Part shown: positions 5,849 to 45,804 of the stretch, in pieces
How positions within the stretch are numbered: position 1 is the first letter of the stretch
Layout of the letters: the number at the start of each line of letters is the position of its first letter
Source: Limosilactobacillus panis
GTDB taxonomy: Bacteria > Bacillota > Bacilli > Lactobacillales > Lactobacillaceae
Length of the DNA: 46,566 bases
Reading direction: 5' to 3'
Assembly: GCF_019797825.1 (NCBI RefSeq)
Contig: NZ_CP081856.1
Location: 1 to 46,566 of the forward strand
Program-made: the position numbers and the translations under genes
Notes under the pieces: generated by a model
What the model saw: only the letters and a program-made list of their open reading frames with translations
The model's database searches: none
What the model was told of the DNA's origin: nothing

Positions 5849-7213
5849 TTAGAATCTTGCCATACCTAATGCATGTTGAGCAGCTAGGTTAAGCAAACTC
5901 CATTGACGGTCAAATCCTGGTTGGAAGAAGAAGTCTTGTTCAGCCAAGTCTTCCAAGCGCATCTTATGACTAATTGCCAAAGCTAAAACATTGCCTTGAG
6001 CAGTAATATCATACTTAGAAAGGACAGCACCGCCTAAGATTTGGTGAGTATATGGATTAAAGGTTAAGCTGACATATACCTTAGGATTATCTGCTTCTGG
6101 GACATAAGCTGGACGCATATGATCTTCATAGAAGCTAGTTTGACAATCAAGCTTATTCTTAGCAGCTGAAAACTTATTTAATCCCGCAGTAGCGAAGTGA
6201 TAGTCAAAGACGCTAAGAGCTGAAGCACCGATAACACCCTTGAAAGCGCGATCTGGCTTATCTTCAAAGATATGATCAACCACATATTGTGCTTCTCTTC
6301 TAGCAGTAGTAGCTAAAGCAATTGGCATTGGCTTACCTGCTGGAATAGAAAGTGGCAAAATTGCATCTCCAATAGCGTAAACGTCTTTAACATTCGTTCT
6401 CAAGTATGGATCAGTCTTAATCCAGCCTCTTTGATCTAAATCAACTGTGTCCTTTAGCCAATCAGTATTAGGAGTTACCCCTGCTGAAACAATAACCAAG
6501 TCAGCTGGTACATCGCCTTGATCGGTCTTGACGCTTTCAACTTTTTCATTACCGTTGAAGCCTTCAATTTTAACGCCCATCTTCAAGTCCATATTCTTCT
6601 TAAAGGTAGGTTCCAAAACATCAAGCAATTCAGGGTTCAAGTAAGTTCCTAATGGACGATCAATCATGTCCATTAAAGTTACATGCTTGCCAGCTTTAGC
6701 AAATACTTCACTAGCTTCAGTACCAATATAACCAGCACCAACAATAGCAACATTCTTAATTGCTGGATTGTTAACAGCACTCATTAACTTAGAAGCCCAA
6801 TCACGTCCACGCATTAAATAGATATTCTTAAGATCATTGCCAGGTACTGGTAAAAACTTTGGCGTTACACCTGATGAAAGAATTAACTTATCATATTGAA
6901 CTTCTTCTTCAGAATTATTGGTTAAATCCTTAACTGTTACTGTCTTATGTTCAGGATGAATCGCGGTTACTTCATGGTTGGCATAAACATGACCGCCCTT
7001 CTTTTCAACATCTTCAGGAGCAAAGTTTCTGACGTCATCTTCAGCCGTAACTTTATTTTCTAAGTATAATTGCATACCACAGGACATAAATGAAATAAAG
7101 TCGCCAGCTTCATAAACAGTTACATCTACATCATTATATTTATCCAACAGCTCAATTGCTGATTCATGACCACCATGTGAAGCACCAACAATTACAATTT
7201 TACGTTTATCCAT
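5849..7213 (-). CDS. nox: NADH oxidase (FAD-dependent, CoA-disulfide reductase family)
   Basis: A 454-residue soluble flavoprotein of the NADH oxidase/peroxidase family, which regenerates NAD+ by reducing oxygen. The FAD-binding segment is KIVIVGASHGGHESA at residues 5-19. The redox-active cysteine is Cys45 in SFMSCGMQLYL. The NADH site is VAIVGAGYIGTEA near 155, and the second FAD motif is DVYAIGDAI near 282. One active-site cysteine fits water-forming oxidases but does not exclude peroxide formation. The start is supported by AGGAGG seven bases upstream; a plausible -10 (TATGAT) is the complement of 7280-7285. An IS30 element touches the stop codon, so any native terminator is gone. Confidence 0.88.
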   Translation of the reverse strand: MDKRKIVIVGASHGGHESAIELLDKYNDVDVTVYEAGDFISFMSCGMQLYLENKVTAEDDVRNFAPEDVEKKGGHVYANHEVTAIHPEHKTVTVKDLTNNSEEEVQYDKLILSSGVTPKFLPVPGNDLKNIYLMRGRDWASKLMSAVNNPAIKNVAIVGAGYIGTEASEVFAKAGKHVTLMDMIDRPLGTYLNPELLDVLEPTFKKNMDLKMGVKIEGFNGNEKVESVKTDQGDVPADLVIVSAGVTPNTDWLKDTVDLDQRGWIKTDPYLRTNVKDVYAIGDAILPLSIPAGKPMPIALATTARREAQYVVDHIFEDKPDRAFKGVIGASALSVFDYHFATAGLNKFSAAKNKLDCQTSFYEDHMRPAYVPEADNPKVYVSLTFNPYTHQILGGAVLSKYDITAQGNVLALAISHKMRLEDLAEQDFFFQPGFDRQWSLLNLAAQHALGMARF

Positions 7214-7347: not shown

Positions 7348-8311
7348 GTGCGCCCGGCATGGGTATTAGCTAGGTGGTGAAAGTCCGCTATGGGCCGTAG
7401 TAGTCGGAACCATGAGCTGAGGACAAGGGTGTCCACCGTGAGGTGGAATCTGAAGGAAGTCTAAGGCAAAGTACTGCATCGATGAACAAGAAGTAGCTAT
7501 AAGGCTGAAATTAACTGGATAAGGCTGCTAGACAAGTTGAAGTCCAATACTACTCGAAGTTGGTCTCAGTAAAGCTAACGATGACATGGTACGAAAGCTA
7601 ATATTCTTACCCGGGGAGATCTGGCCTACACGTTTCCGACAAGAGGAATAAGTTTAATTTCCACAGAAACAAGCGGTGCAGTGATGCAGTGTTGAGTAAG
7701 CCAGAAGTCAGCCGAGGTCATAGTAGTTTGAATAATCAGATGAAGGACTGAACGACAATAACTTGTAACTTATATCGGAGGTGTAATCAGGTGCGACAAT
7801 CGCAGAAAACAGAACAACAAGCTGACCGCTTGTCGAGGATAGGTTTGGAAAACCGAAAGTACACAAGGGCGCGTAGTACCGGTTATGGTGAAGGTAAAGG
7901 TATGAGTGTCACTATCCAAGACCTGGTCTTGGATCGCAATAACCTTAATCAGGCTTATTTGCGAGTTAAGAGAAATAAAGGAGCAGCAGGCGTTGACGAT
8001 ATGACAGTCAATGACCTTCTGCCATATCTCAGAGAAAATAAGACGGAACTGATCGCTAGTTTGCGTGAGGGCAAGTATAAACCAGCTCCAGTCAAACGGG
8101 TAGAAATTCCGAAGCCTAATGGTGGAGTAAGAAGACTTGGAATACCAACGGTGGTGGACCGAATGGTTCAACAAGTTGTAGCCCAAATTCTTACGCCTAT
8201 CTTTGAGCGTATTTTCTCTGATAATAGCTTTGGCTTCCGTCCCCACCGTGGGGCCCATGACGCTATTTCAAAAGTAGTAGATCTTTATAATCAAGGTTAT
8301 CGAAGAGTTTG
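7348..8311 (+). mobile_element. Group II intron, 5' fragment
   Basis: Begins with the conserved 5' end GTGCGCCCGGCATGGGT, followed by about 440 bases of ribozyme sequence with the usual domain I landmarks (for example AAGGGTGTCCACC and GGAATCTGAAGGAAG). It then enters the intron-encoded protein. It breaks off at about 8310, before the catalytic part of the protein and before domains V and VI, so it cannot splice or move by itself. Confidence 0.85.
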
Positions 8312-14553: not shown

Positions 14554-14783
14554 GGCAGATTGTAAAATTTAAGTTGAACATTTAAGTGGACAGAAAAACC
14601 CATCAAGGTCTTTAATGGTGTTACCACACAATCCATTAGAAAGAAGGACCTTGATGAGCACCACTATTTTATCATTCTAGAACCGTGTTATCATTGAAAC
14701 GCTTCATAATTAAGGACGTTCCTTGCGATACATCGCTAACTACTTAGGCTTTAGTAAGACCACCATCTTTAACGAACTTCACC
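14554..14783 (+). mobile_element. ISLpl1-type IS30 remnant (one end plus transposase start)
   Basis: 230 bases nearly identical to the end of the other ISLpl1-type copies: inverted repeat GGCAGATTGTAAAATTTAAG, then the transposase start ATGAGCACCACT. Nonsense changes are visible (TTCTAG for Phe-Gln, AATTAA for Asn-Glu). The remnant breaks off in the Rep-like gene after AACGAACTTCACC and supplies that gene's last codons and stop. Confidence 0.9.
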
Positions 14784-15875
14784 AGATTTTTGAAGAACTA
14801 GTGCTTGTTTAACTTCTTCTGGACTTAGCTTTAGGAAAAGTGAAACAGTAGCTAATACAGGGCCATTACTAATTTCTCCAGTTGTTGGATTAACGTTTGT
14901 TAAGGCTTTAGCGCTTAACTTAGCATGACTAAACTTACCAAGTCGTGATAAGACTTTAGCTTGACTAAGGGTTAGGTTAAGCTTTTGAGAATGAAACCCA
15001 CTAAGACTAGAACGGTATGGATTATCAATATTTGAGTTAGGGTACCAGTTAGCCCGGCCCTGTTTGATTTGCTTTTGGACTTCTTTTTTACGATCTTTTA
15101 GCTCTTCAATCTTACCTTTATTCTGTGGTGTCTGTGGTAGTTTCTGCCACTGATTGACCTCGTGGGCGATACTGTCCCGTAACGCCACCATCTGGCCGTC
15201 TGACAGCTCACCATAGGCTTTCTGTTCAACTTCTGGTACTGCTACCCAGTAATTGGCTAATCGCTCCAATTGGTAGGGCTGTGGCTTTACACTAGCATAG
15301 CCATATGACCAACTGGATTGAATAGCTTTAACCAACTTAGATTTATGGTTAGCTGTTTCAAACTTTAAGCCAGACTTTAAGCAGGCTAGGAAATGCACGT
15401 GCATAGCTTTATCATCGCCATATTCAGCCCCAGCACAAAACTTGTGAGGGTCTAGGTATGAATTACTATCTAACCAAGAAAAGACCTTATCTAGGGCTGT
15501 ATGAGGTGTCTTAGGACACTGCTTCAACTTATCAAAGTGAAGTACACCAGTGCATAGACGGTCTGGACTTTCTGTCTGGAATAACTCAAAATCACGCTTT
15601 ACCTGCCGTCTTTTATTGAGTAGGTATTGTCTATCGTGTCGTTTCTTTTTAGCGTATGAACCACGCTTACCAGTCCTGCCAGTCTTACGGTAGGAATACA
15701 GGTTAATCTTTAGAACGCCCCCACACCGGGGTCATCGGGCACCAGAAGGTGGTAGCTACTTTCTGCAACGTCAAGACTCAAGGCGGTGGCATCACTTTTC
15801 AAAAGATTCAGTTCAGATTGGCCATAATCGTGAACATAGCTTGCTTTAACGTTTTGGTCTAAAGTTTTTAGCAAT
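14769..15875 (-). pseudogene. Rep-like protein (HUH-type motif), frameshifted and 3'-truncated
   Basis: With one frame change the minus strand encodes about 365 residues, from a TTG at 15875 (behind GAGAGGAG) to the IS30 junction. MHVHFLACL matches the HUH motif of rolling-circle replication initiators and relaxases; charged, lysine-rich stretches surround it. The first 54 codons end at a stop just after a run of five C (15718-15722, five G on the coding strand). One extra G would restore the frame into VLKINLYSYRKTGRTGKRGS. The last codons (GEVR) come from the IS30 remnant. It may be a dead replicon, or the frameshift may be a homopolymer error; the C-terminal loss is real either way. Confidence 0.5.
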
Positions 15876-20496: not shown

Positions 20497-23154
20497 CTAG
20501 CTTAATTCAAAGTTATCGCGGCTGTCTTTCAGCAGGTTCTTATCCCGAAGTTCTTGTATGGTGTGACGTTTGTCATCACGGATAAAGAACTTAACACCAT
20601 ACAACTTAACATTTTGGTTTTCCCCTAAGATAACAACATTCTTCGGATTAATTCTTTCCAATAGTTCTTGCTTCCAGTTGTCGCGTTCTAACAATTGATC
20701 ACCTTTAGGTTCCATGTATACCTGGTAGATATAGTCCGCGTCTTTCAGATACAGAATAAAATCTGGCATGTAACCAGCATAATGAGGTACCTCAGAGTCG
20801 AAGTCATGTAGCTTGAAGTCATCTGCACGCTCATCAATCCGGATTAGGTAGGCATCCTGGTACTGTTGTTTTAGAGTAGGCATGATGGCACCAATTTGAT
20901 CAATGAATTGTTTTTCTAAGACGTCAACGATTGCTTGGTCATAGGCATACCAATCTTTGGTGCTCATTGGATATGGGCCAATCTTAGCTGCAGTGGGGTT
21001 ATTAAAGTCCACTGCGACTCGTTTGGTGTAGTCATTAACGACTTCCTTAACCGCCATTGGTAAGAATTCATTAGTTCCTTTTGACCGCATAAAGTTCTTA
21101 ACGATTGCCTGTTGAACATAAGCCAAGTACCGTTCTACGACAGTCAGTCGCTGGTCACTGGTCAGTTTCTCTGTTCCATTAGCAACCCTTGCTTGTACAA
21201 CAGCTTGGCCTAACCAACTTTTGCTGGTCAAAAACTCATACATACTAGTGAGTGTTGGACAGTACTGCTTTAACTTATTAAAACGGAAGAACTTCATGTA
21301 GGACACCGCCGTTTTAATCAACGCCTGATCGGCCGGATTACTAAACCGTGCTGCAATAATAGTGTGACTAGATGACAATTCATGCTTATCGGCACCAGTA
21401 TCGTAGTTGCGTTCCGTCGTTGCATCTTCTAAATCGATAACCGAAGCCGATTCTGTATCGATACCGTACTTTTTGATAGAGTCGTAACTAGAAGCAGGCA
21501 CATTAACCACCTTGTTGTAGTAGATGTTGCCGTGATTGTATATGGCCGTTCGCTTGAATGACGGCCTTACAATGGCCTCATGTGTTTGGTATTTCGTATC
21601 TTCATTAACTGGCAGGTTAATTGCGTCCAGCGATTTCCGTAGATTTTCAAGGTATTGCGGATTATTAATGGTGTGGTAGTAAAGTCGTTCTAACAACTGA
21701 ATTTCGGGTTTACGTTCATCGAAGCGACGTTTATATGATCGTTTTCCTTGATAAATAAATGGATTATAACGAGCTCCACGTCCAATTAATTGTGCTTCTG
21801 AATTGGTATCTTTTAGCTTAATATTCTTTTCGCCAATACGTACGATATCGTATAAGTTTAAGACGTCCCAACCTTCACTCAGCTTGGCAACAGCAAAGAC
21901 AGCCCGAACCGAGTTAGTTTCTAACGTATTCAGCTTTTGAGCAACACTGGTATCATCAAGGATGTCCTTAGATCCGGAGTCATTTGCGTTGATGACGTTG
22001 AATCGCCGAAAATCGCGTTTTAGCTCTGAAACAGTCTCAGCAAAGTCTTGTTTTAGCCAGTATTGGTAAGCTAGATGAAGCGCTTCACTCTGAGTAGATT
22101 TATTTTGTGATTGAATAAAATCTTGTAATGACTCTGACGTTAGGTCATCAATCATTTCGTGGAAGATCTGTTCAGTGTTATTGGACATTTCGATAGTGCT
22201 CGATTTAAATAGAATTACCGGCTTAAAGTCTGGAATATCCATATTACGGGCAATTCGTTTCCGATATTGGGAAAGCAGAATCGCATTGAGCATTTTAGAC
22301 TCATCGGAGTTGTTGGCTTGTAGTCGGTAGACCTTCTTTGAATACCCATCATTGATGAACTTACTGAGGTCATATTCAGCGATAATTTTATTTTGGTACT
22401 TTTGATAAATCTCAGGATTGTGGAGATCGATGGTGGCCGTAAATTCCAGTTGTAAGTTTTTAGGATTTAGCTTTCGAATATGGTCTAACAAGCGTTCCCA
22501 GTTTCGACTATCCTTGTTACTATTTTTGCTCCGTGTCCCGACATTAAAATGGTGAGCTTCATCAGCTAGGATTACCATCTTATTGCGAGCCAGTGAGTCC
22601 TCAGTAATACTGTTTTCGAGTGGAGTGTAAATGTTATTGGAAAGCTGCTGAATCCCAGCAAACTTAATATAAATAGTGTCGTCTTCTAGTTCAGCTGGAT
22701 ATTCGTCTACTGCGCGAATGGTAATGTGGTTTCCTTCAATTGAGATGGGCTCATTAAACAGGTACTTAGGTGAATCGCTGTTAATAAAGTTATCAAGAGT
22801 CTTAGCTACGACGGCCGTAGTATGTGTGGTAAAGAGAAAGCACTGGTAGCCCCATTCATAATAAAGGTAGAGTATGGTAGCTGCCATGATATCCGTTTTA
22901 CCAGATCCAGTGGCCATGTAGAACATGAGTTGGTTGTAAAGCTCATCTGCACCTTGCATATGTCTAACCATGTCCAGATGACGAATAGCGTCTAATTGAT
23001 AAGAACGCAGGTGGTGCTTCATATTGTCGCTAATGTAAAGCGGCAAACGATCCATACGATTATTTTGTTGAGAGAATAGGTCAGTGCTATTCAAGGCATT
23101 TAATAGCTTTAACTCAATTTTTTCCTCTTGTTTATCTTTCTTTTTTCGGGGCAT
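20497..23154 (-). CDS. res: Type III restriction enzyme, Res subunit
   Basis: An 885-residue DNA translocase-nuclease that with Mod forms a type III restriction enzyme. Superfamily 2 helicase motifs: Walker A MATGSGKTD at about 80-88, DEAH box at 198-201 (VILADEAHHF), motif VI region AQLIGRGARYNP. The C-terminal nuclease motif PDFILYL...VYMEPKGD supplies the D...ExK metal-binding residues. The start codon overlaps the Mod stop (23154), so translation is coupled. The length is normal and no break is seen. The system should cleave DNA lacking Mod methylation and thereby also help retain the plasmid. Confidence 0.92.
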   Translation of the reverse strand: MPRKKKDKQEEKIELKLLNALNSTDLFSQQNNRMDRLPLYISDNMKHHLRSYQLDAIRHLDMVRHMQGADELYNQLMFYMATGSGKTDIMAATILYLYYEWGYQCFLFTTHTTAVVAKTLDNFINSDSPKYLFNEPISIEGNHITIRAVDEYPAELEDDTIYIKFAGIQQLSNNIYTPLENSITEDSLARNKMVILADEAHHFNVGTRSKNSNKDSRNWERLLDHIRKLNPKNLQLEFTATIDLHNPEIYQKYQNKIIAEYDLSKFINDGYSKKVYRLQANNSDESKMLNAILLSQYRKRIARNMDIPDFKPVILFKSSTIEMSNNTEQIFHEMIDDLTSESLQDFIQSQNKSTQSEALHLAYQYWLKQDFAETVSELKRDFRRFNVINANDSGSKDILDDTSVAQKLNTLETNSVRAVFAVAKLSEGWDVLNLYDIVRIGEKNIKLKDTNSEAQLIGRGARYNPFIYQGKRSYKRRFDERKPEIQLLERLYYHTINNPQYLENLRKSLDAINLPVNEDTKYQTHEAIVRPSFKRTAIYNHGNIYYNKVVNVPASSYDSIKKYGIDTESASVIDLEDATTERNYDTGADKHELSSSHTIIAARFSNPADQALIKTAVSYMKFFRFNKLKQYCPTLTSMYEFLTSKSWLGQAVVQARVANGTEKLTSDQRLTVVERYLAYVQQAIVKNFMRSKGTNEFLPMAVKEVVNDYTKRVAVDFNNPTAAKIGPYPMSTKDWYAYDQAIVDVLEKQFIDQIGAIMPTLKQQYQDAYLIRIDERADDFKLHDFDSEVPHYAGYMPDFILYLKDADYIYQVYMEPKGDQLLERDNWKQELLERINPKNVVILGENQNVKLYGVKFFIRDDKRHTIQELRDKNLLKDSRDNFELS

Positions 23155-25097
23155 TAGTCATTTCCCTTTCCGTAAAAGCTCTTGTTGAATTGGTAGTCGC
23201 TGTCGGAGATTAATGCGCGCACATCAGCATCGTCAATGTTGTCTTCATTAAAGTATAGCTGATTTTTGTTGAGCATCTTAATCAGGAGTTTCTTTTGCTC
23301 TTCAAAGGACATACTCTTTCGTTCCGGATCATTCTCGTACTTGTTCAGATCTACTCGGAAGTCATAGTCAGCACCTTGTTTCATGCGCTGATAAACAGAG
23401 TTTAAGTCATCGATGGTCGTAGCATTTTCTAAGTCTTTGAGATAGCCCATATTCTTTTCCATCAGTTCGGCGTAGACAAAGGACCCGCCGCCCTGCCAGT
23501 TAACGTCTTTGGAAATCCCACCTTGTTCGCCAGCAATGACCTTTTGTAGGCGTGGAACAGAGACAGTATTGATGTAGTCCATTTGTTCAATGCCGATGAA
23601 ATGACGGTGCATTTTCATTGCTACTGCTTGAGTGGTAGCGGAACCCATAAAGAAGTCCAAGACTAAGTCATTCTGATTGGTAGAAAGTTCCAAAATACGC
23701 TGAATTAACTCTTCAGGCTTAGGATTTGTAAAAACGGCACTGCCAAATATTTGTCTTAAATGTTTAGTAGCTGAAGTATTAGTGTTGGTTTCTAGCCATG
23801 AAATACTATTATTTTCTTTAATTCCATGCCAAATGGTGCTTGCGGCCTTGCCTTTACCTGAATCTTTAACTTCATAATAATAGGCTTTCAGTTGTGGCTT
23901 TGAGGTTCCCTTTACCCCGAATCTAATTCTCCCATCCTTTAATAGTTTTTTAAATTCATCTTCAGTTGTTCTCCAGCATCTACCACGTGGTGGTACATAG
24001 ATATCATGAGTAGTAGGGTTTTGGATTTCATACTCAAGATTTTTTCGGATATGTGGTGCATCAAATGGCTCGACTCGATAAGGTCCACGGCCATCATGAT
24101 CGTTGTACTTAAATGATTCTTTGTTTAAGGCTAAACGAAAACTATTTTTGTCGATACAGTCTACATTTTTGGCATAAATCAAAATATGATTACTATTTAA
24201 TGACATTAATCCATCACTAGAGACGGAAGTCCTGGATTCCCAAGTCACATCTGCAATGAAATTATTTTGTCCAAAAATACTGTCCGTTAAAACCTTTAAA
24301 TAATGAACTCCCTCATCTGACATAGAAATAAACAAGGTGCCATTTTCAGTTAAAAGCTTTTTGGATAATTCTAAACGAGTTTTCATAAAAGTTAGCCAAG
24401 ACGAAAGCTTGAAATTTGAATTATATGAAAATGTATCAGCTGGCTTTTTACTGCCAAAATAATAAGGTGGATCGATAAAAATTGACTTGATCTTTCCAGC
24501 ATATTTAACAGACAGGGAAGATAGGCCAATAAGATTGTTACCCTTTATGAGTAAATTATCTTGTTTATTAAAATGGCTTATAGTATGTTCCCCATTTTTA
24601 TCATAACGTTTAATATTAACCATTACTTTAGGCTCAAGAAGCTCACTAATTTCTGAATGTGCTAAGGTTTCGTTTAAAAATGGTTCATCTGCACCAACCT
24701 CTTTATCTACATCTTCTTTGCTCATACCAGCTTTTAGGACAGTATCTTTATAGGGGAAGTCCAGAACAACGTCTTCAGAGTCACTTATAAACTTTCCGTC
24801 AGTCGTTAAGCCAATTCGGTTAGTGTACTTTGTAAAGCTGTCTTCCCAAAACTCCTTGTACGCAAAAACATCAAGGAATTGATTTAACTTGAAAATTTCA
24901 GTGTTGGCAATCTCTTCTGTGTATTGGTCATGAATTTGCTGATTGGCTAGTAATGCCGTCATTAAGTTCTTGTCATAGTGATCTAGATCTTCGATAACTT
25001 TATTTCGTTTTAACGCGCCATTACTATCTATGTATTTATTGCCAAAGCCCGAGAGAACAGATTTTACTTGTTCCATAATTTTAGATTCAACTTGCAT
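23154..25097 (-). CDS. mod: Type III DNA adenine methyltransferase, Mod subunit
   Basis: A 647-residue beta-class N6-adenine methyltransferase that also recognises the target for the Res subunit. Catalytic motif IV is IDPPYYFGSKK near residue 209; the S-adenosylmethionine motif I is LVLDFFMGSATTQAV further on. Between them lies the variable target-recognition region (about 300-450). The ATG at 25097 is preferred to a GTG at 25106 because AGGTGA sits upstream of it. The gene starts 15 bases after parB and overlaps res, so parA-parB-mod-res reads as one operon. Confidence 0.92.
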   Translation of the reverse strand: MQVESKIMEQVKSVLSGFGNKYIDSNGALKRNKVIEDLDHYDKNLMTALLANQQIHDQYTEEIANTEIFKLNQFLDVFAYKEFWEDSFTKYTNRIGLTTDGKFISDSEDVVLDFPYKDTVLKAGMSKEDVDKEVGADEPFLNETLAHSEISELLEPKVMVNIKRYDKNGEHTISHFNKQDNLLIKGNNLIGLSSLSVKYAGKIKSIFIDPPYYFGSKKPADTFSYNSNFKLSSWLTFMKTRLELSKKLLTENGTLFISMSDEGVHYLKVLTDSIFGQNNFIADVTWESRTSVSSDGLMSLNSNHILIYAKNVDCIDKNSFRLALNKESFKYNDHDGRGPYRVEPFDAPHIRKNLEYEIQNPTTHDIYVPPRGRCWRTTEDEFKKLLKDGRIRFGVKGTSKPQLKAYYYEVKDSGKGKAASTIWHGIKENNSISWLETNTNTSATKHLRQIFGSAVFTNPKPEELIQRILELSTNQNDLVLDFFMGSATTQAVAMKMHRHFIGIEQMDYINTVSVPRLQKVIAGEQGGISKDVNWQGGGSFVYAELMEKNMGYLKDLENATTIDDLNSVYQRMKQGADYDFRVDLNKYENDPERKSMSFEEQKKLLIKMLNKNQLYFNEDNIDDADVRALISDSDYQFNKSFYGKGND

Positions 25098-25112
25098 ATT
25101 AATCACCTATAT

Positions 25113-25487
25113 TTATTTTTCTTCCTTTTTCTCAAACATTTCCAACCAAAGATCATATGAACGCTTCTCATCAGCATTCAAGGAATTAAGAACACGTTCG
25201 ATTGCTTGGTCAACTGTAGCATCCTGTGTCGACACGCTAAGTGCATTCTCAAGTGCGTTGATCTTCAGCACAGTCTTCTTCTGTAGGCGAACCGTTTGGT
25301 AAGATTTACGTCCGCTCTTAGGTCTACCAGGGTGCTTTTTCTTTGGCTTCTCTTGTTGATAGTCTTCTTCGACCTGTTTTGTCATCTTAACAGGGTCGTA
25401 GGTTTCCTTGGGCTTAGAGATCTTTGTCTCCGTAATTGGTTTTGGCGCCTTCTTTTTAGCGCTCTTATTGAATTCGAACTTGGCCAT
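25113..25487 (-). CDS. parB: Partition DNA-binding protein (ParB-like), copy 1
   Basis: A 124-residue partner of ParA. The N-terminal half is very basic and low-complexity (many KPK and KKK runs). The C-terminal half (GRKSYQTVRLQKKTVLKINA followed by two helices) looks like a ribbon-helix-helix or similar dimeric DNA binder. Its ATG overlaps the parA stop by one base. Paralogue at 45430-45804 with the same length. It probably binds the TAGTAA/TTACTA repeats upstream of parA and represses the operon. Confidence 0.75.
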   Translation of the reverse strand: MAKFEFNKSAKKKAPKPITETKISKPKETYDPVKMTKQVEEDYQQEKPKKKHPGRPKSGRKSYQTVRLQKKTVLKINALENALSVSTQDATVDQAIERVLNSLNADEKRSYDLWLEMFEKKEEK

Positions 25488-26374
25488 TACTTCAATTCAA
25501 CCCCTTTGTCTTTTAGGCGTGCGATGATTTCTTTCGTCAACGTGTTGTAGATATAGTGCAGACGGGTATCGTGCATATCATACTTCGTTAGGCCCTTTTC
25601 AGCTATCCCGGTTCGGTCATAACGCTTGAGACGTTCCATGTGACGGATGATCTGGTTAAATAGCATATCCTTTCCAAAGTCGGTTTCGGCATCCTTCAGA
25701 ATTTGATTGTCGAGGCCGACATTGTTTTTTAAAAGGACGGCTAATACACCCAGAATATCAAAGTCGACATTGGCGTAATCGTTATACATCTGTTGAAGGT
25801 ACTCAAAGAATGTTTCAGCACCATCTAGAGACCGTTGTTGAGTTTGAAGAACAATAATAACGAAGTCCGTGGCGTAAATGGCGGAGTCGGTAAAGATAGA
25901 TAATGTCGGTGGTACGTCGATAATAATGAAGTCGTATTCATCACGGACCTTAGCAAGTTGCTGGGCAAAGTAGGCGATTCGTTGTTCTTTAACTTTGCTC
26001 ATTTCACTTTGCAGAGTGGTGCTATCACCGGCCTCAATCTTTTCCTTATCTAACATGAACTTCATTTCGAGGAAGTCTGGATAGTTCTTAAAGTCCTCGG
26101 AAGATGGCAGCAGGTATAAATTGTCCATGATGTTAACAATGGCCGACTTAATATTTTCTTCGGTCAGTGCAACCATCATGGTTTTGTTGATTTGCAGATC
26201 AGTCCCATGCTGCAACCCATATGTCCGTCGAAGTAATTGAGTTGCGTTGGCTTGCGGATCCAGATCACAGACAAGCGTCTTATAACCTAACTTTGCTAAT
26301 TGATAAGCCGTCATAACGCTGTTGGTTGTTTTACCAACACCGCCTTTCATGTTTCCGTATAAAATTGCTGGCAT
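25487..26374 (-). CDS. parA: ParA-type partition ATPase, copy 1
   Basis: A 295-residue deviant Walker ATPase: MKGGVGKTT at about 9-17, CDLDPQANAT at 39-48, and DFIIIDVPPTLS as Walker B. It drives segregation of plasmid copies with its DNA-binding partner and the centromere repeats upstream. The ATG at 26374 has AAAGGAG eight bases upstream; the GTG nine bases earlier overlaps that site. The protein is highly similar to 44543-45430, yet codons differ at a large share of synonymous positions, so the two copies diverged long before meeting on this plasmid. Confidence 0.92.
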   Translation of the reverse strand: MPAILYGNMKGGVGKTTNSVMTAYQLAKLGYKTLVCDLDPQANATQLLRRTYGLQHGTDLQINKTMMVALTEENIKSAIVNIMDNLYLLPSSEDFKNYPDFLEMKFMLDKEKIEAGDSTTLQSEMSKVKEQRIAYFAQQLAKVRDEYDFIIIDVPPTLSIFTDSAIYATDFVIIVLQTQQRSLDGAETFFEYLQQMYNDYANVDFDILGVLAVLLKNNVGLDNQILKDAETDFGKDMLFNQIIRHMERLKRYDRTGIAEKGLTKYDMHDTRLHYIYNTLTKEIIARLKDKGVELK

Positions 26375-26483
26375 CTTCTTCACTCCTTTGAAGTCCCTGG
26401 TTCAATTTCATAATTAGTTTACTACAAGTAATAAAAAATGGCAATAATCGCTAATATATAGGCATTAACTAGCAAAATAATTA

Positions 26484-26780
26484 ATTGTAGTAAGTTATAT
26501 ATTTACTACAATTATATATTATAGTAAACAAATTGCGGAGTGAAGAAGCGTGGGATCACTCAAAAAAATTTTAGCAGTCTATTAATTAGTTGTAGTAAGT
26601 TATATATTTACTACAATTATATATTGTAGTAAACTAATTGCTTTTTCAAAAAATGAAATGCTGTTAAATCAACGTTTGTCGATGTAGTAAATATATAACT
26701 GTAGTAAGTTATATATTGTAGTAAGTTATATATTTACTACAGTTATATATTTACCACAATATATAACGTACTACAGCAAA
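26484..26780. repeat. Centromere-like repeats upstream of parA copy 1
   Basis: Three clusters (26484-26530, 26590-26640, 26699-26780) of GTAGTAAGTTATATAT and its complement, often as TAGTAA...TTACTA palindromes. They lie just upstream of parA and recur in altered form at the other parA. This is the expected arrangement of a parS site plus operator. Confidence 0.8.
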
Positions 26781-26790
26781 TTCGAAAGCA

Positions 26791-26819
26791 TTTACATTCG
26801 CTTCGGATTAGCGTATTTT
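26791..26819 (+). promoter_or_regulatory. Leader promoter, copy 1 (away from parA)
   Basis: TTTACA (26791-26796) and TATTTT (26814-26819), spacing 17. Conserved at the second locus (44069-44097). The transcript would begin with a hairpin GGTGAA.TAGTT / AACTA.TTCACC (26823-26852) and run through the control RNA region, the attenuator and the conserved core. Confidence 0.55.
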
Positions 26820-26867
26820 AATAGGTGAAATAGTTTTGGCGAACTACTTCACCAACTAAATAAACGA

Positions 26868-26961
26868 GAGTAAAAGAAAAAGCCCGCTGAAGTATTGCCG
26901 TACCTCAACGAGCTACCGATTAGCTAAACACACTAGCTAACGGGGTTGTCATTTCATTTAT
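26868..26961 (-). ncRNA. Candidate antisense control RNA, copy 1
   Basis: Promoter on the minus strand: TTGAAT (complement of 26991-26996), 17-base spacer, TATAAT (complement of 26968-26973). The RNA would start near 26961 and end at a terminator whose 14-bp stem (26881-26914) pairs throughout if G-U pairs are allowed, followed by CTTTTTCTTTT. Size about 94 nt. It is fully antisense to the leader running the other way, as copy-control RNAs are. Promoter and terminator are both conserved at 43891-44013. Confidence 0.7.
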
Positions 26962-27030
26962 ACTCCTATTATAGGAGCGAAATGGCGTTAATTCAAGTAA
27001 TCTACCCGGATACTGAAACCCGAAGACTAA

Positions 27031-27065
27031 GTGTATAGCTAAACGGCTATACGCTTTTTCTTTTG
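27031..27065 (+). terminator. Attenuator-like terminator, copy 1
   Basis: GTGTATAGC / GCTATACGC (27031-27054) followed by TTTTTCTTTT. It lies downstream of the region covered by the control RNA, in the direction of the leader. The counterpart at 43820-43851 has a different stem sequence but the same fold and T run. Confidence 0.75.
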
Positions 27066-27087
27066 GTTCACAACCGGTTAAACTCGC

Positions 27088-27214
27088 AAGCAGTGACTCT
27101 GCACCGTGGTAGTATCCCGAAAGCGTCCGTGGATCTGGAGACGCGCCAGACCCGTAGTTAACATCATAGGTATGCTAAACCTTGTTCTTATCGCACGGAA
27201 CTAAAGACGTGGCT
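27088..27214. ncRNA. 127-nt conserved non-coding core, copy 1
   Basis: Identical to the complement of 43669-43795 at 126 of 127 positions. No open frame is shared. Predicted helices: GCAG-TGACT-CTGC, GGATCTGG / CCAGACCC, AGGT-ATGCTAA-ACCT, GTTC-TTATCGCACG-GAAC, and an alternative GCGTC...GACGC pairing. The single difference (C here, T in copy 2) falls in the second helix, where T gives the perfect pair. May be structured leader RNA or an origin element. Confidence 0.65.
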
Positions 27215-27387
27215 GGATGTCTTGGAAATGCTAAAGACTATCCTTATATTAACCGTGAGTCTAATGGTTTCTCATAATAATACCTTTCTAGTTCAAAGGT
27301 TAATGACAGAAAAGAACCCCCCGGCTAACTGGGTTAATGAGCGATATAAGGAGCAAGGGCAAGATGCGCTTAAATGGTCTTTCAAGT

Positions 27388-27507
27388 AATTACTGTTGAG
27401 TTAAGTAGCTAGCTTTAGTTAGTTAATTGAACAGTAATTGCTTTTTCGCTGTTTCGAATGTTACATTCATTAACGACGATTAGCCACTATTAGGCTGTTA
27501 ATGAATG
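27388..27507 (+). other. Further hairpins downstream of the core, copy 1
   Basis: AATTACTGTT (27388-27397) pairs with AACAGTAATT (27430-27439) and is followed by GCTTTTTC, so it can terminate. CATTCATTAAC (27464-27474) pairs with GTTAATGAATG (27497-27507) with an inner AGCC/GGCT. Copy 2 has hairpins of different sequence in the same order (43521 down to 43414). The rest to 27652 holds no gene; any rep gene was lost where the IS30 inserted. Confidence 0.55.
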
Positions 27508-27652
27508 AACCTAGCGGTTAGCCGTAGGCTTAAGGGATCGTCTATGCTTTTTACTTTATACATAGGTATATTTATAGTAGTTTACTTGCTTGCTTAATGA
27601 GTGATGCACTGGTAAGTAAAGTTAATTTCTATAAATACTTACGGCAGATTGC

Positions 27653-28698
27653 AAGAAATAACTTGAACAAATTTAGTAACGCAGATTACGCAAAAAGATC
27701 TCAATCGGTGTTCGCCAATTTAAACATTTGAGTGGTTGGGAATTCAAATACCAATTAATTTGAATCAGCTGGCGATCGCTTAACTCTTCAATGGCTTGGC
27801 CTTTGGGAATAAAGCGTCGTAAAACTCGGTTACGGTTCTCATTACTGCCGCGTTCATGTGGTGAATAAGCATGGGCAAAATAAACCGGAGTACCAGTTTG
27901 CTGCTCAATTGCCTGGTAGTTAGCGAACTCTTTACCATGATCTACGGTAAGCGTCTTGAGCTTGTCTTGAAGTTGACTAGCTAGTTCAAGTACGGCTTGA
28001 GTCATGGACTGACTGTCGCGACCATGGAGCCGTTTAACAATTGTCAGGCGACTCTTACGCTCCACAAAAGTAGCCACAGCTTGGCCTTTACGTTTGCCAG
28101 AAAGTACGGTATCAGCTTCAAAGTGGCCGAATTCCTGGCGAGTTTCGACTTTATGAGGCCGCTCCTCAATGGAGCGGCCGTGACTGAACGTACCACGCTT
28201 TTCTTTAGCACGATGACGACGAATTCCATGATCAGGCAAATCGGGCAACTGTACATCAAGCCATCCTTGATCAATCCAGTTATAGACCGTCTTGTAGGCA
28301 ATCCCAACCACATGGGCAACTTGTTCAGGGGACCACTTCTGGATTTGAATCTTTTCTTCGATCAAGTGTTTAAGGTTTTTAGTGAGCGAAAACTTCCGCC
28401 CCCGTTGACTAACCTTGCGTTCAAAGTCAGTTTGCGCTAGCTCAGCCTGGTACTCACTATTTAGCCGGTGAAGTTCGTTAAAGATGGTGGTCTTACTAAA
28501 GCCTAAGTAGTTAGCGATGTATCGCAAGGAACGTCCTTCATTATGAAGCGTTTCAATGACAACACGGTTCTGGAATGATAAAATAGTGGTGCCCCATAAA
28601 GGTCCTTCTTTCTAATGGAATGTTGTGGTGACACCATTAAAGACCTTTATGGGTTTTTCTGTCCACTAATATGTTCAACTTAAATTTTACAATCTACC
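27653..28698 (-). mobile_element. ISLpl1-type IS30 element
   Basis: 1,046 bp between GGCAGATTGCAAGAAATAAC (27653) and the complement of GGTAGATTGTAAAATTTAAG (ending 28698). Flanks (TAC / ATT) show no target duplication, so the junctions may reflect recombination between copies rather than a simple insertion. It separates the structured leader from a surface-protein remnant. Confidence 0.9.
27673..28527 (-). pseudogene. IS30 transposase with a frameshifted start
   Basis: Everything from RYIANYLGFSKTTIF to the C-terminus is intact, including the catalytic blocks EFGHFEADTVLS (Asp), TLTVDHGKEFA (Asp) and SPHERGSNENRNRVLRR (Glu). The normal start is spoiled: the sister copy reads ATGAGCACC, this one ATGGGGCACC, one base longer. 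The ATG therefore leads into a short wrong frame. A TTG at 28527 could start a protein lacking about 24 N-terminal residues, part of the DNA-binding domain. Probably inactive. Confidence 0.75.
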
Positions 28699-29663: not shown

Positions 29664-30296
29664 ATGGCTAATACTAATTCTAAATTCTACACAAACAAGG
29701 AAATGGCAAAAATTTGTGGCGTTTCTGAGGCGTCAATGACGAATTTAGTTAAGTCATCAGAATTAGCCCCAGTAAGAATGGGCAAATACGGCCGTAAATA
29801 CTATGATAGCAATGCCTTAAAGAAGGTTAAAAGCCACTATAAGAATAAGGCTAAGCCGTCAACTAATTCTGCTAAAGTATCAACCAAAGATGACATAATT
29901 AAACAACAACAGGATCATATTGACGATCTAAAGGCTCAAATTAAGACCCTTAATGAACAGTTAGTTGTCAAAGATAGGCAAATTGAAGCCCAAACTGAAC
30001 AGATCAAGCAAACTTCTGTCTTATTGTCACAGGCCCATACCCTAACTTACGATGAGCGCCGTCAATTCATGCATGATCATGGCACAGTCGGTCGGACATA
30101 TGCTGGTAAAATTTGGCAATATATCACTGGATCCATTGGTCTGGACGATTTCGAATGGGGCGTGACTCTTTTTGCAGAGACACCACTGATGTTCAAAAAA
30201 ATTATTGCTGAGATGCGTTATTATGAAGCCAGTTCTGTCTATGGTGAGTTTCCATATTTTGTGGTGGGCACACACATGGACAATGCTGGATTATAA
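29664..30296 (+). CDS. Chimera: DUF536-type plasmid protein fused to HemQ C-terminus
   Basis: A 210-residue ORF with an excellent ribosome binding site (AAAGGAGG, 7 bases to the ATG). Residues 1 to about 125 are a DUF536/RepB-type plasmid protein: helix-turn-helix ([20 protein letters not shown]), basic linker and coiled coil ([17 protein letters not shown]...). From about residue 127 the sequence is the C-terminal part of coproheme decarboxylase: [20 protein letters not shown], then [20 protein letters not shown] and EASSVYGEF. The axial-histidine (HDHG), the following Gln and the later Ser of HemQ are present; the N-terminal catalytic Tyr and Lys are not. It probably arose by deletion. It may bind heme weakly, act as a regulator, or do nothing. 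Confidence 0.75.
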
Positions 30297-42193: not shown

Positions 42194-43006
42194 TTAGGAC
42201 ACCACTCGCAACAAAGCCCCGCCTTTTAGTTCCATGCATATCCAACTAACTAGGCGCTCGGCTTGGAATTGTTCGGCTAAGTAGTAGTGTTTGTTGTGGT
42301 ACTTGTTGCGATTAACAACTAAATTCCAGGCCATGATTTTATGTTCAATCAACCATTGGATAGTATTCCGAACCGTGGCCAGTGGCAAGTTGACCCGCTC
42401 GGCAATCCAACTATTGCCCCGGCCCTTATATACTACATTGCCGTTTGGCCCGCCCTTCTCACCTTCAAAAATCATTGATCTTATGCCAAGGTAAACAGCC
42501 AGACGGTTAAGCGTTGCAATCCCGTGCGACTGGTCAAGGATAGCTTTATAGGTGCTTGCATAGATTTTGCTAAAGCCACCCTCGACAGACTGAATAGTTG
42601 GGAAGTCAAGCTTGATACAATCCTCGTCAATCGTGATTACCTCGGCCTCTACCAACTCTCTCAATAAGTCGTGGGCCAGTGGCCGTTGATTGCTGTTCTT
42701 GATACCTAACCATCGCAGAATAGTAGTCTCACTTACTCTCTCAATCACTCGCTCATTATCGACCGCAGGGACTGGTCCAGCTTGCATCGCAAGGATTACC
42801 AGCAACCCATAGGCTCGACTTGATAACTCCATATCAAACACTGATTTAGGAAGCCAGCCCCACACTCCCGGCTTCTTCTCTTCTAGATCGTGCTTTATAA
42901 GCGATTTATACGTCACTTGTAGGCGTTGCTTGGCCAGATCACGATCACGCTTCACTTCGTATGGCTTCACTTTCAAAATTACGTCTTGAATTTCTTTCTC
43001 TTTCAG
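42194..43006 (-). CDS. Candidate replication initiator (two winged-helix regions)
   Basis: 270 residues if started at CTG 43006, which has a perfect AGGAGG (43015-43020) at 8-base spacing; the first conventional alternative (TTG 42976) has no such site. VWGWLPKSVFDMELSSRAYG and the following helices (RVSETTILRWLGI...LLRELVEAEVI) look like a first winged helix. GNSWIAERVNLPLATVRNTI followed by QWLIEHKIMAWNLVV is a second. Two winged helices are the architecture of theta-plasmid initiators. The long structured leader with attenuator, the antisense RNA and the adjacent parAB support the call. The specific Rep family is not recognised, and a regulator cannot be excluded. Confidence 0.55.
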   Translation of the reverse strand: MKEKEIQDVILKVKPYEVKRDRDLAKQRLQVTYKSLIKHDLEEKKPGVWGWLPKSVFDMELSSRAYGLLVILAMQAGPVPAVDNERVIERVSETTILRWLGIKNSNQRPLAHDLLRELVEAEVITIDEDCIKLDFPTIQSVEGGFSKIYASTYKAILDQSHGIATLNRLAVYLGIRSMIFEGEKGGPNGNVVYKGRGNSWIAERVNLPLATVRNTIQWLIEHKIMAWNLVVNRNKYHNKHYYLAEQFQAERLVSWICMELKGGALLRVVS

Positions 43007-43020: not shown

Positions 43021-43413
43021 CAATCGTTGATATATGGGCGTTGAGAATACGTCACTCATAAAGTGGCGTATTAAATTATCTCTTTCCTTATAATTCTCTC
43101 TTTAATTGTATCTTTCATTTACTACCATTAGTGTGTATACATTGAATAGATAGTTTTAACTAATATGTAACCACTGCATAGTATATTTATATATAGTCAA
43201 TAACTATGCTCCAACTGCACGGTCATATATCACTACTCAACTCATAGTCCCCACAATACCATGGAAGCCCCTATATTATGTCGTTCTTGACGTGAAAGCA
43301 TTGAAATATCTTCAAAATTGGTTAGACCATTTAGTTGTATAGGCTTCTTTATCGTTGATATTTAGGGCGTACTCATCCTTAAACCCCACCAAAGTAATGC
43401 GGTAGCATCATCA

Positions 43414-43521
43414 TCACACTTAGCCTGTCTGTGGCTAAAATGTGACAAAACGATAGCATATCGTTACACTCATTGCTCATTTACTCAACTAACAATTCAT
43501 ATCATTAGCTCAGTAAATGAG
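43414..43521 (-). other. Hairpin series in the rep leader, copy 2
   Basis: Read on the minus strand: CTCATTTACT / AGTAAATGAG (43521 to 43476), AACGAT-ATGCT-ATCGTT (43465 to 43449), and TCACA..TTAGCC / GGCTAA.TGTGA (43445 to 43414). These correspond in order, not in sequence, to hairpins at 27388-27507. The rest of the leader (43021-43413) has no recognisable gene. Confidence 0.55.
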
Positions 43522-43668
43522 TAATGCAGACAATTTAAGCGCACTCCGCCCTTGCCCCTATTAACTTTAGAGTTGATTTTGGTATTTGCAGTCAGAGCAA
43601 TTCATCAGCGAGAACTCAAGTAAGTCGCGTAATTAATAGGGCTGTCCGTAGCATTTCCGAAGCTTCCA

Positions 43669-43795
43669 AGCCACGTCTTTAGTTCCGTGCGATAAGAACA
43701 AGGTTTAGCATACCTATGATGTTAACTACGGATCTGGCGCGTCTCCAGATCCACGGACGCTTTCGGGATACTACCACGGTGCAGAGTCACTGCTT
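43669..43795. ncRNA. 127-nt conserved non-coding core, copy 2
   Basis: Complement identical to 27088-27214 except one base, which restores a perfect GGATCTGG / CCAGATCC stem here. It lies between the attenuator and the rep candidate in the minus direction. Confidence 0.65.
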
Positions 43796-43819: not shown

Positions 43820-43851
43820 AAGAAAAAGCATGTAGCCGATTAGCTACACGC
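43820..43851 (-). terminator. Attenuator-like terminator in the rep leader, copy 2
   Basis: On the minus strand GCGTGTAGC / GCTACATGC is followed by TTTTTCTTTT. An upstream GCTACC in the leader can pair with the first arm (GTAGC) and prevent the terminator. The control RNA covers that GCTACC, so binding would favour termination, as in pIP501/pT181-type attenuation. Confidence 0.7.
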
Positions 43852-43890: not shown

Positions 43891-43919
43891 TTGAATTTTT
43901 CGCCATTTCTTTCTATAAT
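43891..43919 (+). promoter_or_regulatory. Promoter of the control RNA, copy 2
   Basis: TTGAAT (43891-43896) and TATAAT (43914-43919), spacing 17; identical boxes and spacing at copy 1. Confidence 0.8.
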
Positions 43920-43925
43920 TTATTT

Positions 43926-44013
43926 ATAGATGAAACGACAACCCCGATCAGCTAGTTACGGTAGCTTTTCGGTAGCCCGTTGAAGTACGCCAATACTTCA
44001 ACGGGCTTTTTCT
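43926..44013 (+). ncRNA. Candidate antisense control RNA, copy 2
   Basis: About 88 nt from the predicted start to the terminator, whose 14-bp perfect stem AGCCCGTTGAAGTA / TACTTCAACGGGCT (43974-44007) is followed by TTTTTCTTTT. It is antisense to the rep leader starting near 44062. It carries GGTAGC segments complementary to the leader's GCTACC. It encodes no peptide (ATGAAACGA... has no ribosome site). Confidence 0.72.
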
Positions 44014-44068: not shown

Positions 44069-44097
44069 AAAATACGCTAATCTGAAGCGAATGTAAA
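44069..44097 (-). promoter_or_regulatory. Leader promoter, copy 2 (toward rep)
   Basis: TTTACA (complement of 44092-44097) and TATTTT (complement of 44069-44074), spacing 17, conserved at copy 1. Predicted start near 44062. Confidence 0.55.
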
Positions 44098-44505: not shown

Positions 44506-44542
44506 GTGAATTTGAACAGGGGACTTCAAAGGAGTGATGATA

Positions 44543-45430
44543 ATGCCAGCAATTCTTTACGGCAATATGAAGGGTGGAGTCGGCAAGACAACCAACAGCG
44601 TTATGACGGCTTACCAACTTGCCAAACTGGGCTACAAGACGCTCGTATGCGACCTGGACCCCCAGGCCAATGCTACCCAACTGCTGCGGCGGACCTATGG
44701 CTTACAACATGGATCCAATTTACAGATCGACAAAACCATGATGGTCGCGCTGATGGACGAGAACATCAAGCCCGCTATCGTCAACATCATGGACAATCTT
44801 TACCTGTTACCATCCTCCGAGGATTTTAAGAACTACCCAGATTTCCTTGAAATGAAGTTCATGCTGGATAATGAAAAAATCCAGGCGGGTGATAGCAATA
44901 TGCTGCAAAGCGAGATGAGCAAGGTTAAGGAACAACGAATCGCCTACTTCGCCCAGCAACTCGCCAAAGTGCGTGATGAGTACGACTTCATCATTATCGA
45001 CGTACCACCGACGCTTTCCATCTTTACTGACTCCGCTATTTACGCGACTGACTTTGTTATCATCGTCCTCCAGACGCAACAACGGTCACTGGATGGTGCC
45101 GAGATTTTCTTTGAGTACCTCCAGCAGATGTACAACGACTACGCAAACGTCGACTTTGATATTCTTGGTGTCCTAGCCGTTCTGCTGAAGAACAACGCAG
45201 GCCTTGATAGTCAAATCTTGAAAGACGCGGAAACAGACTTCGGTAAGGATATGCTCTTTGACCAGATCATTCGACACATGGAGCGACTCAAGCGTTATGA
45301 CCGAACTGGGATCGCCGAGAAGGGCTTGACCAAGTACGACATGCACGATACTCGGCTGCATTATATTTACAACACGCTGACGAAGGAAATCGTCTCACGC
45401 TTAAAGGACAAAGGGGTTGAATTGAAATAA
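44543..45430 (+). CDS. parA: ParA-type partition ATPase, copy 2
   Basis: 295 residues, same length and motifs as 25487-26374 (MKGGVGKTT, CDLDPQANAT, DFIIIDVPPTLS). Differences are few at protein level (for example GSNLQID for GTDLQIN), while synonymous codons differ extensively and are GC-richer here. The ATG at 44543 follows AAAGGAG at the same spacing as in copy 1. It overlaps parB by one base. Both partition systems appear functional, which raises questions about incompatibility within one molecule. Confidence 0.92.
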   Translation: MPAILYGNMKGGVGKTTNSVMTAYQLAKLGYKTLVCDLDPQANATQLLRRTYGLQHGSNLQIDKTMMVALMDENIKPAIVNIMDNLYLLPSSEDFKNYPDFLEMKFMLDNEKIQAGDSNMLQSEMSKVKEQRIAYFAQQLAKVRDEYDFIIIDVPPTLSIFTDSAIYATDFVIIVLQTQQRSLDGAEIFFEYLQQMYNDYANVDFDILGVLAVLLKNNAGLDSQILKDAETDFGKDMLFDQIIRHMERLKRYDRTGIAEKGLTKYDMHDTRLHYIYNTLTKEIVSRLKDKGVELK

Positions 45431-45804
45431 TGGCCAAGTTTGAGTTTAACAAGAGCGCTAAGAAAAAGTCGCCAAGACCGATTACAGAAACAAAGATCTC
45501 CAAGCCTAAAGAGACTTACGACCCCGCAAAGATGACGAAACAAGTCGAAGCTGAATTTCAAAAGCAACCAAAGAAAAAACGCCCAGTCGGACGGCCCAAG
45601 AGTGGGCGAAAGTCCTACCAGACGGTACGATTACAGAAGAAAACGGTATTGAAAATCAATGCTCTGGAAAATGCTCTCGGGGTACCAACCCAAGATGCCA
45701 CGGTTGACCAGGCTATTGAACGGGTGCTCAACTCGTTGAACGCTGATGAAAAACGGTCATATGAATTGTGGCTCGAAATGTTTGAGAAAAAAGAAGAAAA
45801 ATAA
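45430..45804 (+). CDS. parB: Partition DNA-binding protein (ParB-like), copy 2
   Basis: 124 residues, the same length as copy 1, with the conserved C-terminal half SGRKSYQTVRLQKKTVLKIN followed by ENALGVPTQDATVDQAIERV. Most differences lie in the basic N-terminal linker (AEFQKQPKKKRPVG against EDYQQEKPKKKHPG). An IS30 end begins three bases after the stop codon. If mod-res once followed parB here as at the other locus, it has been lost. Confidence 0.75.
   Translation: MAKFEFNKSAKKKSPRPITETKISKPKETYDPAKMTKQVEAEFQKQPKKKRPVGRPKSGRKSYQTVRLQKKTVLKINALENALGVPTQDATVDQAIERVLNSLNADEKRSYELWLEMFEKKEEK

Follow-up and report, generated by a model that had tools for sequence, protein, structure and literature searches.

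Two loci on one contig carry a non-coding core of 127 nt that is almost the same in both, while the partition genes beside it have diverged, which raises the question of what the core does and why its two copies match so closely. The window, by which we mean the whole stretch of DNA analyzed, is an entire contig of 46,566 bases in a 2.13-Mb assembly. As the first-pass annotation had noted, the core and the complement of its second copy agree at 126 of 127 bases:

27088..27214, plus strand: copy A of the core, the 5' part of the structured RNA, 126/127 identical to copy B, with helices 1 to 4 of the covarying structure
43669..43795, minus strand: copy B of the core, 126/127 identical to copy A

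The sole difference lies at core position 64, which is C in A and T in B. With T, GGAUCUGG/CCAGAUCC is fully paired, and with C it contains one A·C mismatch; the annotated improvement of a stem therefore holds when the change is read from A to B and is reversed in the other direction. Beside each copy, and divergent from the RNA, are genes for a ParA-type ATPase and a DUF5388 protein:

25487..26383, minus strand: copy A ParA-type ATPase (Pfam AAA_31)
25113..25487, minus strand: copy A DUF5388 (ParB-like) protein (Pfam PF17363)
44534..45430, plus strand: copy B ParA-type ATPase (Pfam AAA_31)
45430..45804, plus strand: copy B DUF5388 (ParB-like) protein (Pfam PF17363, at cut-off)

The divergence claimed for these genes was evident. 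The parA genes differ at 57 of 104 four-fold sites, with 281 of 299 codons (including the stop) translating alike, and the parB-like genes differ at 30 of 39 four-fold sites, with 109 of 125 codons translating alike. The sequence had also been said to diverge rapidly beyond the core. This is so on its 3' side, where A/B identity drops fast, but not upstream, where the DNA is homologous (87.9% over 662 columns including the core, at approximately 26583 to 27233 of the window). By module, A and B are identical at 0.992 in the core, 0.772 in the leader, and 0.389 in the distal domain.

The core had been read as a structured RNA or an origin element, and a comparison of relatives bore out the first of these. 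After removal of 18 of 51 elements that were at least 97% alike to a retained one, 33 distinct relatives were kept, and in these the core is followed by further helices that extend it in both copies as follows:

27088..27384, plus strand: copy A, full RNA element of 276 positions (covarying pairs; 248.9 bits with covariance model R1, which has A among its source sequences)
43524..43795, minus strand: copy B, full RNA element of 276 positions (276.1 bits with R1, which has B among its source sequences)
27385..27530, plus strand: copy A distal domain, with a long hairpin, a UAGCC/GGCUG hairpin, and an enclosing helix (alignment and shuffles)
43380..43523, minus strand: copy B distal domain (alignment and helix test)

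The structure consists of eight helices with 44 pairs in total, and 91.3% of its 1,432 cells are paired, a percentage that is inflated relative to slid versions because these sequences, in a companion alignment, guided the drawing of the structure by hand. Both sides are altered in 39 of the 44 pairs, and the covariation score is 0.613, compared with 0.212 for shuffled and 0.10 to 0.14 for slid alignments, margins that are somewhat flattered because the shuffles ignore relatedness. The second half is closed by a helix that reaches over 183 columns, 98.5% of whose cells are paired. Further downstream, the enclosing helix of the copy A distal domain beats all 100 shuffles, and the helix around the UUAGCC/GGCUAA hairpin beats 95% of shuffles in 24 of 32 relatives. 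A UUCG/CGGA hairpin after the core was dropped, as it clashes with the better-supported closing helix. Single-sequence folds of A and B are not more stable than shuffles (z of −0.03 and −0.77), and the case for an RNA therefore rests on covariation. The comparison shows the core to be part of a predicted structured non-coding RNA of 276 positions plus a distal domain. Since G·U cells outnumber A·C cells over all helices (103 versus 14, or approximately 74 to 14 without one pair that supplies 29 of the 103), the transcribed strand is most likely that of the core (plus for copy A, minus for copy B).

The RNA had not been recognized as a known family, and no Rfam model matched the element at gathering score, either in the window or in five relatives; the gathering-score matches obtained (group II introns and one RatA) all lay outside it. 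Group II intron domains are present at 7432 to 7748 on the plus strand of the window. Weak Rfam matches at E values of up to 5 were attributed to chance, being animal and plant microRNA models on AT-rich repeats, and so were Thr_leader matches on the attenuator region (E of 0.72 and 0.77) and similar weak leader models; all of these scored far below gathering score. A tRNA search found none.

In a blastn search of 72,556 plasmid records, the core matched 37 records at 44 places, all from Lactobacillales and mostly from Lactiplantibacillus (23) and Limosilactobacillus (8); at least 80% of the core was covered in 10 of the 37. These matches include Lactobacillus gasseri pLgLA39, an Enterococcus faecalis plasmid, and L. 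plantarum p256, while a search of phage records with the core gave no match. Scanned with a profile and then with R1, 22 of 397 Lactobacillaceae genomes, representing 11 of 40 genera, contained the full element, and a scan of Limosilactobacillus found 19 copies in 11 of 50 genomes. At the level of the order, matches were obtained in 3 of 395 genomes, namely, the window's own, another Limosilactobacillus, and one weak match (28.7 bits). All of these genome counts come from filtered scans, in which weak matches are lost. A pattern match in Salegentibacter (L029) was absent from the profile search and was taken as chance. One R1 copy (L060, G314:C1:1043562-1043875) lies in a single-contig 2.4-Mb assembly and is thus apparently chromosomal; it has no antisense terminator at the usual place and is perhaps an integrated, decaying replicon. 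Other copies lie on 11- to 12-kb IMG/VR contigs (L035 to L038) or, on a plasmid of L. plantarum (L014), beside genes annotated as phage capsid and head-tail, and a link to phage-plasmids or satellites is possible for these.

The match to p256, the best-known member of the family, whose replicon is the 256rep of the pSIP vectors, connects the element to a function. The 2005 paper on p256 calls the replicon a new type in its title and reportedly describes no Rep gene. By blastn, the core of copy B reaches p256 (NC_006278) with an E value of 1e-7 over 46% of its length, and R1 matches p256 at 5895 to 6133 with 208.2 bits, a near-identical sequence being among R1's sources. This element is homologous to those of A and B, and a p256-like relative (L037) has a forward promoter, an antisense gene, an attenuator, and the core in the same order. 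Upstream, A and B carry the ParA-DUF5388 locus, whereas p256 carries a frame that matches DUF536; two short frames that overlap lie immediately 5' of the p256 replicon (L039, 5027 to 5588), one of which carries the match, and a single longer annotated frame occupies the same place in L016.

The vector pCD256dEc (1,690 bp) is described as consisting of only the p256 minimal origin and a CAT gene, and derivatives of this line were introduced into L. plantarum CD033 (PMC4247782). The p256 element is bracketed by two printed primer sites that map to 5810 to 5828 (EFP_screen_back, which screens pCD256dEc constructs; PMC4247782) and 6229 to 6247 (p256miniori_for; PMC3526553); the sites are placed on the minimal plasmid by the primers' names and use, and the replicon ends are thus primer derived. 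The 256rep of pSIP403 seems to end at p256 6247 as well, because primer 403BamCmF (PMC6429040) joins p256 up to that position to a BamHI site. Between 5589 and 6614, p256 has no open reading frame (ORF) of at least 60 amino acids, the largest being 59. The largest ORF of the whole plasmid encodes a 280-amino-acid integrase and not a large PriCT_1-type Rep. According to PMC3526553, the p256 origin was maintained in L. buchneri CD034 and Enterococcus faecium CD036, which speaks against a helper Rep. These printed primer data support well the placement of the element inside the p256 minimal origin, in agreement with the suggestion of an origin element, and by homology A and B are p256-type replicons. 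The window contig has the appearance of a plasmid that carries two replicons of this type. As for the expectation of something undescribed, the replicon has been in print since 2005, but the available portions of the open-licence literature describe no structured or antisense RNA for it.

The DNA upstream of each core contains predicted signals for transcription on both strands:

26791..26819, plus strand: copy A predicted forward promoter, TTTACA-17-TATTTT (promoter score)
44069..44097, minus strand: copy B predicted forward promoter, TTTACA-17-TATTTT (promoter score)
26876..26961, minus strand: copy A predicted antisense RNA, 86 nt, loop GUGUGUU (promoter TTGAAT-17-TATAAT at 26996-26968)
43926..44012, plus strand: copy B predicted antisense RNA, 87 nt, loop GUUACGG (promoter TTGAAT-17-TATAAT at 43891-43919)
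27031..27060, plus strand: copy A attenuator-like hairpin with a U-run, just 5' of the core
43822..43851, minus strand: copy B attenuator-like hairpin with a U-run

Across the family, the strand opposite the core carries an antisense promoter (typically TTGAAA-17-TACAAT or TTGAAT-17-TATAAT) at a distance of 80 to 125 nt upstream of the core and an antisense terminator 195 to 250 nt upstream of it, and the core strand carries a terminator-like hairpin, the putative attenuator, 20 to 60 nt upstream. The promoter was found in 31, the terminator in 32, and the attenuator in 32 of the 33 relatives, and all three together in 29, within position windows that were fixed after inspection of the same sequences. 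Among 495 random windows from the same loci, the corresponding numbers were 63, 17, 17, and 0, and among 396 shuffles they were 63, 6, 1, and 0. The implied antisense RNA is 85 to 103 nt long in 30 of 33 relatives and 81, 114, and 129 nt long in the others under a looser promoter rule. Those of the A/B type fold into two hairpins, while those of p256-like members fold into three. A forward promoter approximately 300 nt 5' of the core scored at least 9 in 17 of 33 relatives, compared with 46 of 495 controls.

The upper hairpin of the antisense RNA has a loop closed by CUA/UAG, and this loop is hypervariable, with a mean pairwise identity of 0.34 versus 0.67 and 0.75 for the arms. There are 23 distinct loops among 28 members with a 7-nt loop, a diversity that is slightly overstated because the count omits L011, L028, L054, and L081, of which L054 has the same loop as L019, and L081 the same as L046; members that lack a CTA..TAG hairpin, including the p256-like ones, are also outside the count. 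Four plasmids of this replicon type in L. oris BSLO1801 (L043 to L045 and L050) differ in their loops, as do four copies in genome G104. Overall, a loop was shared by 0 of 16 within-genome pairs and by 9 of 512 other pairs, numbers too small for a test; both pair counts omit L011, L028, and the members that lack a CTA..TAG hairpin, and one of the 16 pairs takes pLR585 (L041) to be a plasmid of strain SD2112. On the core strand, one arm of the target hairpin and the attenuator are able to pair, through CGAUUAACUA and UAGUUAAUCG or, in p256-like members, through CGAUAGCAA and UUGUUAUCG. This anti-attenuator pairing beats 95% of shuffles in 26 of 33 relatives (mean of −26.4 versus −17.4 kcal/mol) and misses that 5% line in the other 7, which include copy B (21 of 200 shuffles). 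Comparison thus shows the predicted layout of antisense RNA and attenuator to be conserved.

We assign a probability of about 0.7 to the reading that these replicons are driven by an RNA and not by a protein, with an antisense RNA that controls read-through into the structured RNA and with the structured RNA starting replication, probably as a primer. A long transcript would begin approximately 300 nt upstream of the core. When the target-hairpin arm in its leader pairs with the attenuator, transcription would read into the structured RNA; if the target hairpin is instead captured first by the antisense RNA, the attenuator would form, ending transcription ahead of the core. Once folded, the read-through RNA would initiate replication together with proteins of the host, most likely as a primer that remains annealed to the template close to its own 3' end. 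The antisense loop would set copy number and incompatibility, so that with different loops (GUGUGUU in A, GUUACGG in B) two replicons may share a plasmid or a cell, and the near-identical cores would be due to a core module that was exchanged recently among members of the family. Transcription, attenuation, and loop-set incompatibility are steps that we infer from the predicted signals, and the role as a primer is the least certain; the loops are only consistent with incompatibility that follows them. A wider proposal, which we advance tentatively and would put somewhat below even odds, is that the family forms a protein-free, RNA-driven class of theta replicons of Gram-positive bacteria in at least 11 Lactobacillaceae genera, in which the RNA serves as a primer or an R-loop scaffold, the switch is antisense-induced attenuation and not blocked primer folding, and the antisense, core, and distal modules are swapped independently.

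Vectors derived from p256 are standard tools for lactobacilli, and the available literature handles their origin as a black box. If this origin is a structured RNA under antisense attenuation, then its copy number, compatibility, and host range become testable, and one gains access to a Gram-positive counterpart of RNA-primed plasmid replication whose control follows a different logic. The replicon family also suggests that compatibility may persist through a change of a 7-nt loop while the rest is shared.

A comparable replicon is that of ColE1, whose origin functions without a Rep gene. There, RNA II is the primer and RNA I its antisense RNA, alternative alpha-beta and beta-gamma pairings form before the origin, and RNase H cleaves the RNA, which DNA polymerase I then extends. 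The replicons described here resemble it in having, in p256, an origin with no obvious Rep gene, a long structured RNA, and a short antisense RNA with small loops directed against the 5' part of the long RNA, which here is predicted (promoter and terminator counts above). They differ from it in that no Rfam model matches at gathering score and in that control appears to work by attenuation. The search for a ColE1-like three-strand switch close to the 3' end gave no support for one, with one helix found in 24 of 32 relatives and the competing helix in only 5 of 32 (L020 gave no hairpin, and the p256-like members are probably misplaced in this test). A second resemblance is to the inc18 plasmids pIP501 and pAMbeta1 (RNAIII), in whose leader an antisense RNA likewise runs convergently and transcription ends ahead of the product under control; both features are predicted here. 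In inc18 plasmids the controlled product is the RepR mRNA, whereas in A and B a non-coding structured RNA follows the attenuator. In pT181, an antisense RNA of 87 nt acts against a leader (PMC5703833), and this is about the size predicted for the antisense RNA of A and B. The pT181 antisense RNA controls a rolling-circle Rep, however, and none was found among the p256 ORFs scanned (5 of the 15 of at least 60 amino acids).

The inc18 comparison leads to an alternative in which the RNA is the regulatory leader of a downstream rep gene under antisense attenuation and a protein is the real initiator. Such control of a rep leader by antisense-induced attenuation is established for pIP501 (PMC4981023). 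At copy B, the RNA is followed by a candidate for this role:

42194..42976, minus strand: 260-amino-acid protein downstream of copy B, on the same strand as the RNA (predicted fold resembles F-plasmid RepE)

The best fold match of the protein model (pLDDT of 77) is RepE of plasmid F (Foldseek E of 1.7e-4, TM of 0.40 to 0.45), although by sequence the protein has no family in Pfam, NCBIfam, or PHROGs and no match in the PDB. In L018, L010, L003, L013, and L026, a homologue likewise lies downstream of the RNA and on its strand; for many relatives the downstream DNA compared was short, so absence there is not established. Against the alternative, the genus scan found the gene directly downstream at only 3 of 19 RNA copies and elsewhere on the contig at 1 more, and the protein also occurs apart from the RNA. 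A tblastn search of the window found no second homologue, and copy A therefore lacks one. In p256, there is no ORF of at least 60 amino acids for approximately 480 nt beyond the element, and the vectors of minimal origin plus CAT gene were used in L. plantarum, as noted above. We regard a rep-leader role as unlikely in general, although it may apply at copy B.

Other Rep-like proteins do occur in the family, and they count against the RNA-driven reading. One relative (L043) encodes a REP_ORF2-G2P protein that scores above cut-off, and six (L002, L042, L044, L047, L048, and L049) carry an annotated "replication protein" or "replication initiator protein A". We read the Rep-like proteins of copy B and its relatives as added or second initiators. 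In the window, no PriCT_1-type Rep was found among the 29 ORFs scanned with Pfam (of 43 ORFs of at least 100 amino acids). A 252-amino-acid protein at 14769 to 15527 (minus strand) has a weak REP_ORF2-G2P match (26.1 bits against a cut-off of 27.8) and is possibly a further replication protein of the contig.

To account for the close match of the two cores, the annotation had proposed either extreme constraint or local gene conversion. Selection strong enough to hold the cores at 126/127 with no exchange would fit the finding that, of the three modules compared, the core is the best conserved across the family (mean identity of 0.63, compared with 0.49 for the leader and 0.43 for the distal domain) and that blocks such as GGUAUGCUAAACC are widely shared. 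Nevertheless, pairwise core identity among the 33 relatives averages only 62.5%, stems differ in sequence yet stay paired, and clearly different cores are already present among relatives within the same genus. The annotation had named homologues that vary freely and lack preserved pairing as its refuting case; the homologues do vary a great deal, but with pairing preserved. The A-B pair ranks first of 528 family pairs in core identity, both raw and as a residual after flank identity, and the distal domains have different nearest relatives (L045, L050, and L049 for A; L012, L010, and L018 for B). Core-only matches are also seen in other pairs, as L047/L048 and L047/L049 share cores and much less of the distal part. 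Purifying selection alone is accordingly quite improbable as the cause. Because family cores average so low an identity and the flanks of A and B differ, the match is probably due to a recent exchange or conversion of the core, and module exchange looks common in this replicon family.

It is very improbable that the element acts as DNA, with origin hairpins in single-stranded or cruciform form that bind host proteins and with incidental transcripts, since despite its position inside a minimal origin and the inability of paired columns alone to separate RNA from DNA, the excess of G·U over A·C cells, the helices that close over approximately 180 columns, and an antisense promoter, a terminator, and a hypervariable loop that are expected only with a target RNA all argue otherwise.

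Several further features of the window were noted. Just downstream of the copy A RNA, which reads as complete up to approximately 27530, is a transposase gene at 27673 to 28527 (minus strand) with rve and HTH_38 matches, which we take to be IS30-like. Type III restriction-modification genes (ResIII helicase and N6/N4 methylase) are located beside the copy A par locus at 20497 to 25106 (minus strand), and a methyltransferase-helicase pair is annotated beside the ParA locus of pLR584 (L046). A 210-amino-acid protein at 29664 to 30296 (plus strand), with HTH_17 and a C-terminal piece of chlorite dismutase, adjoins an MFS transporter and a ferrochelatase, a neighborhood that looks like heme-related cargo.
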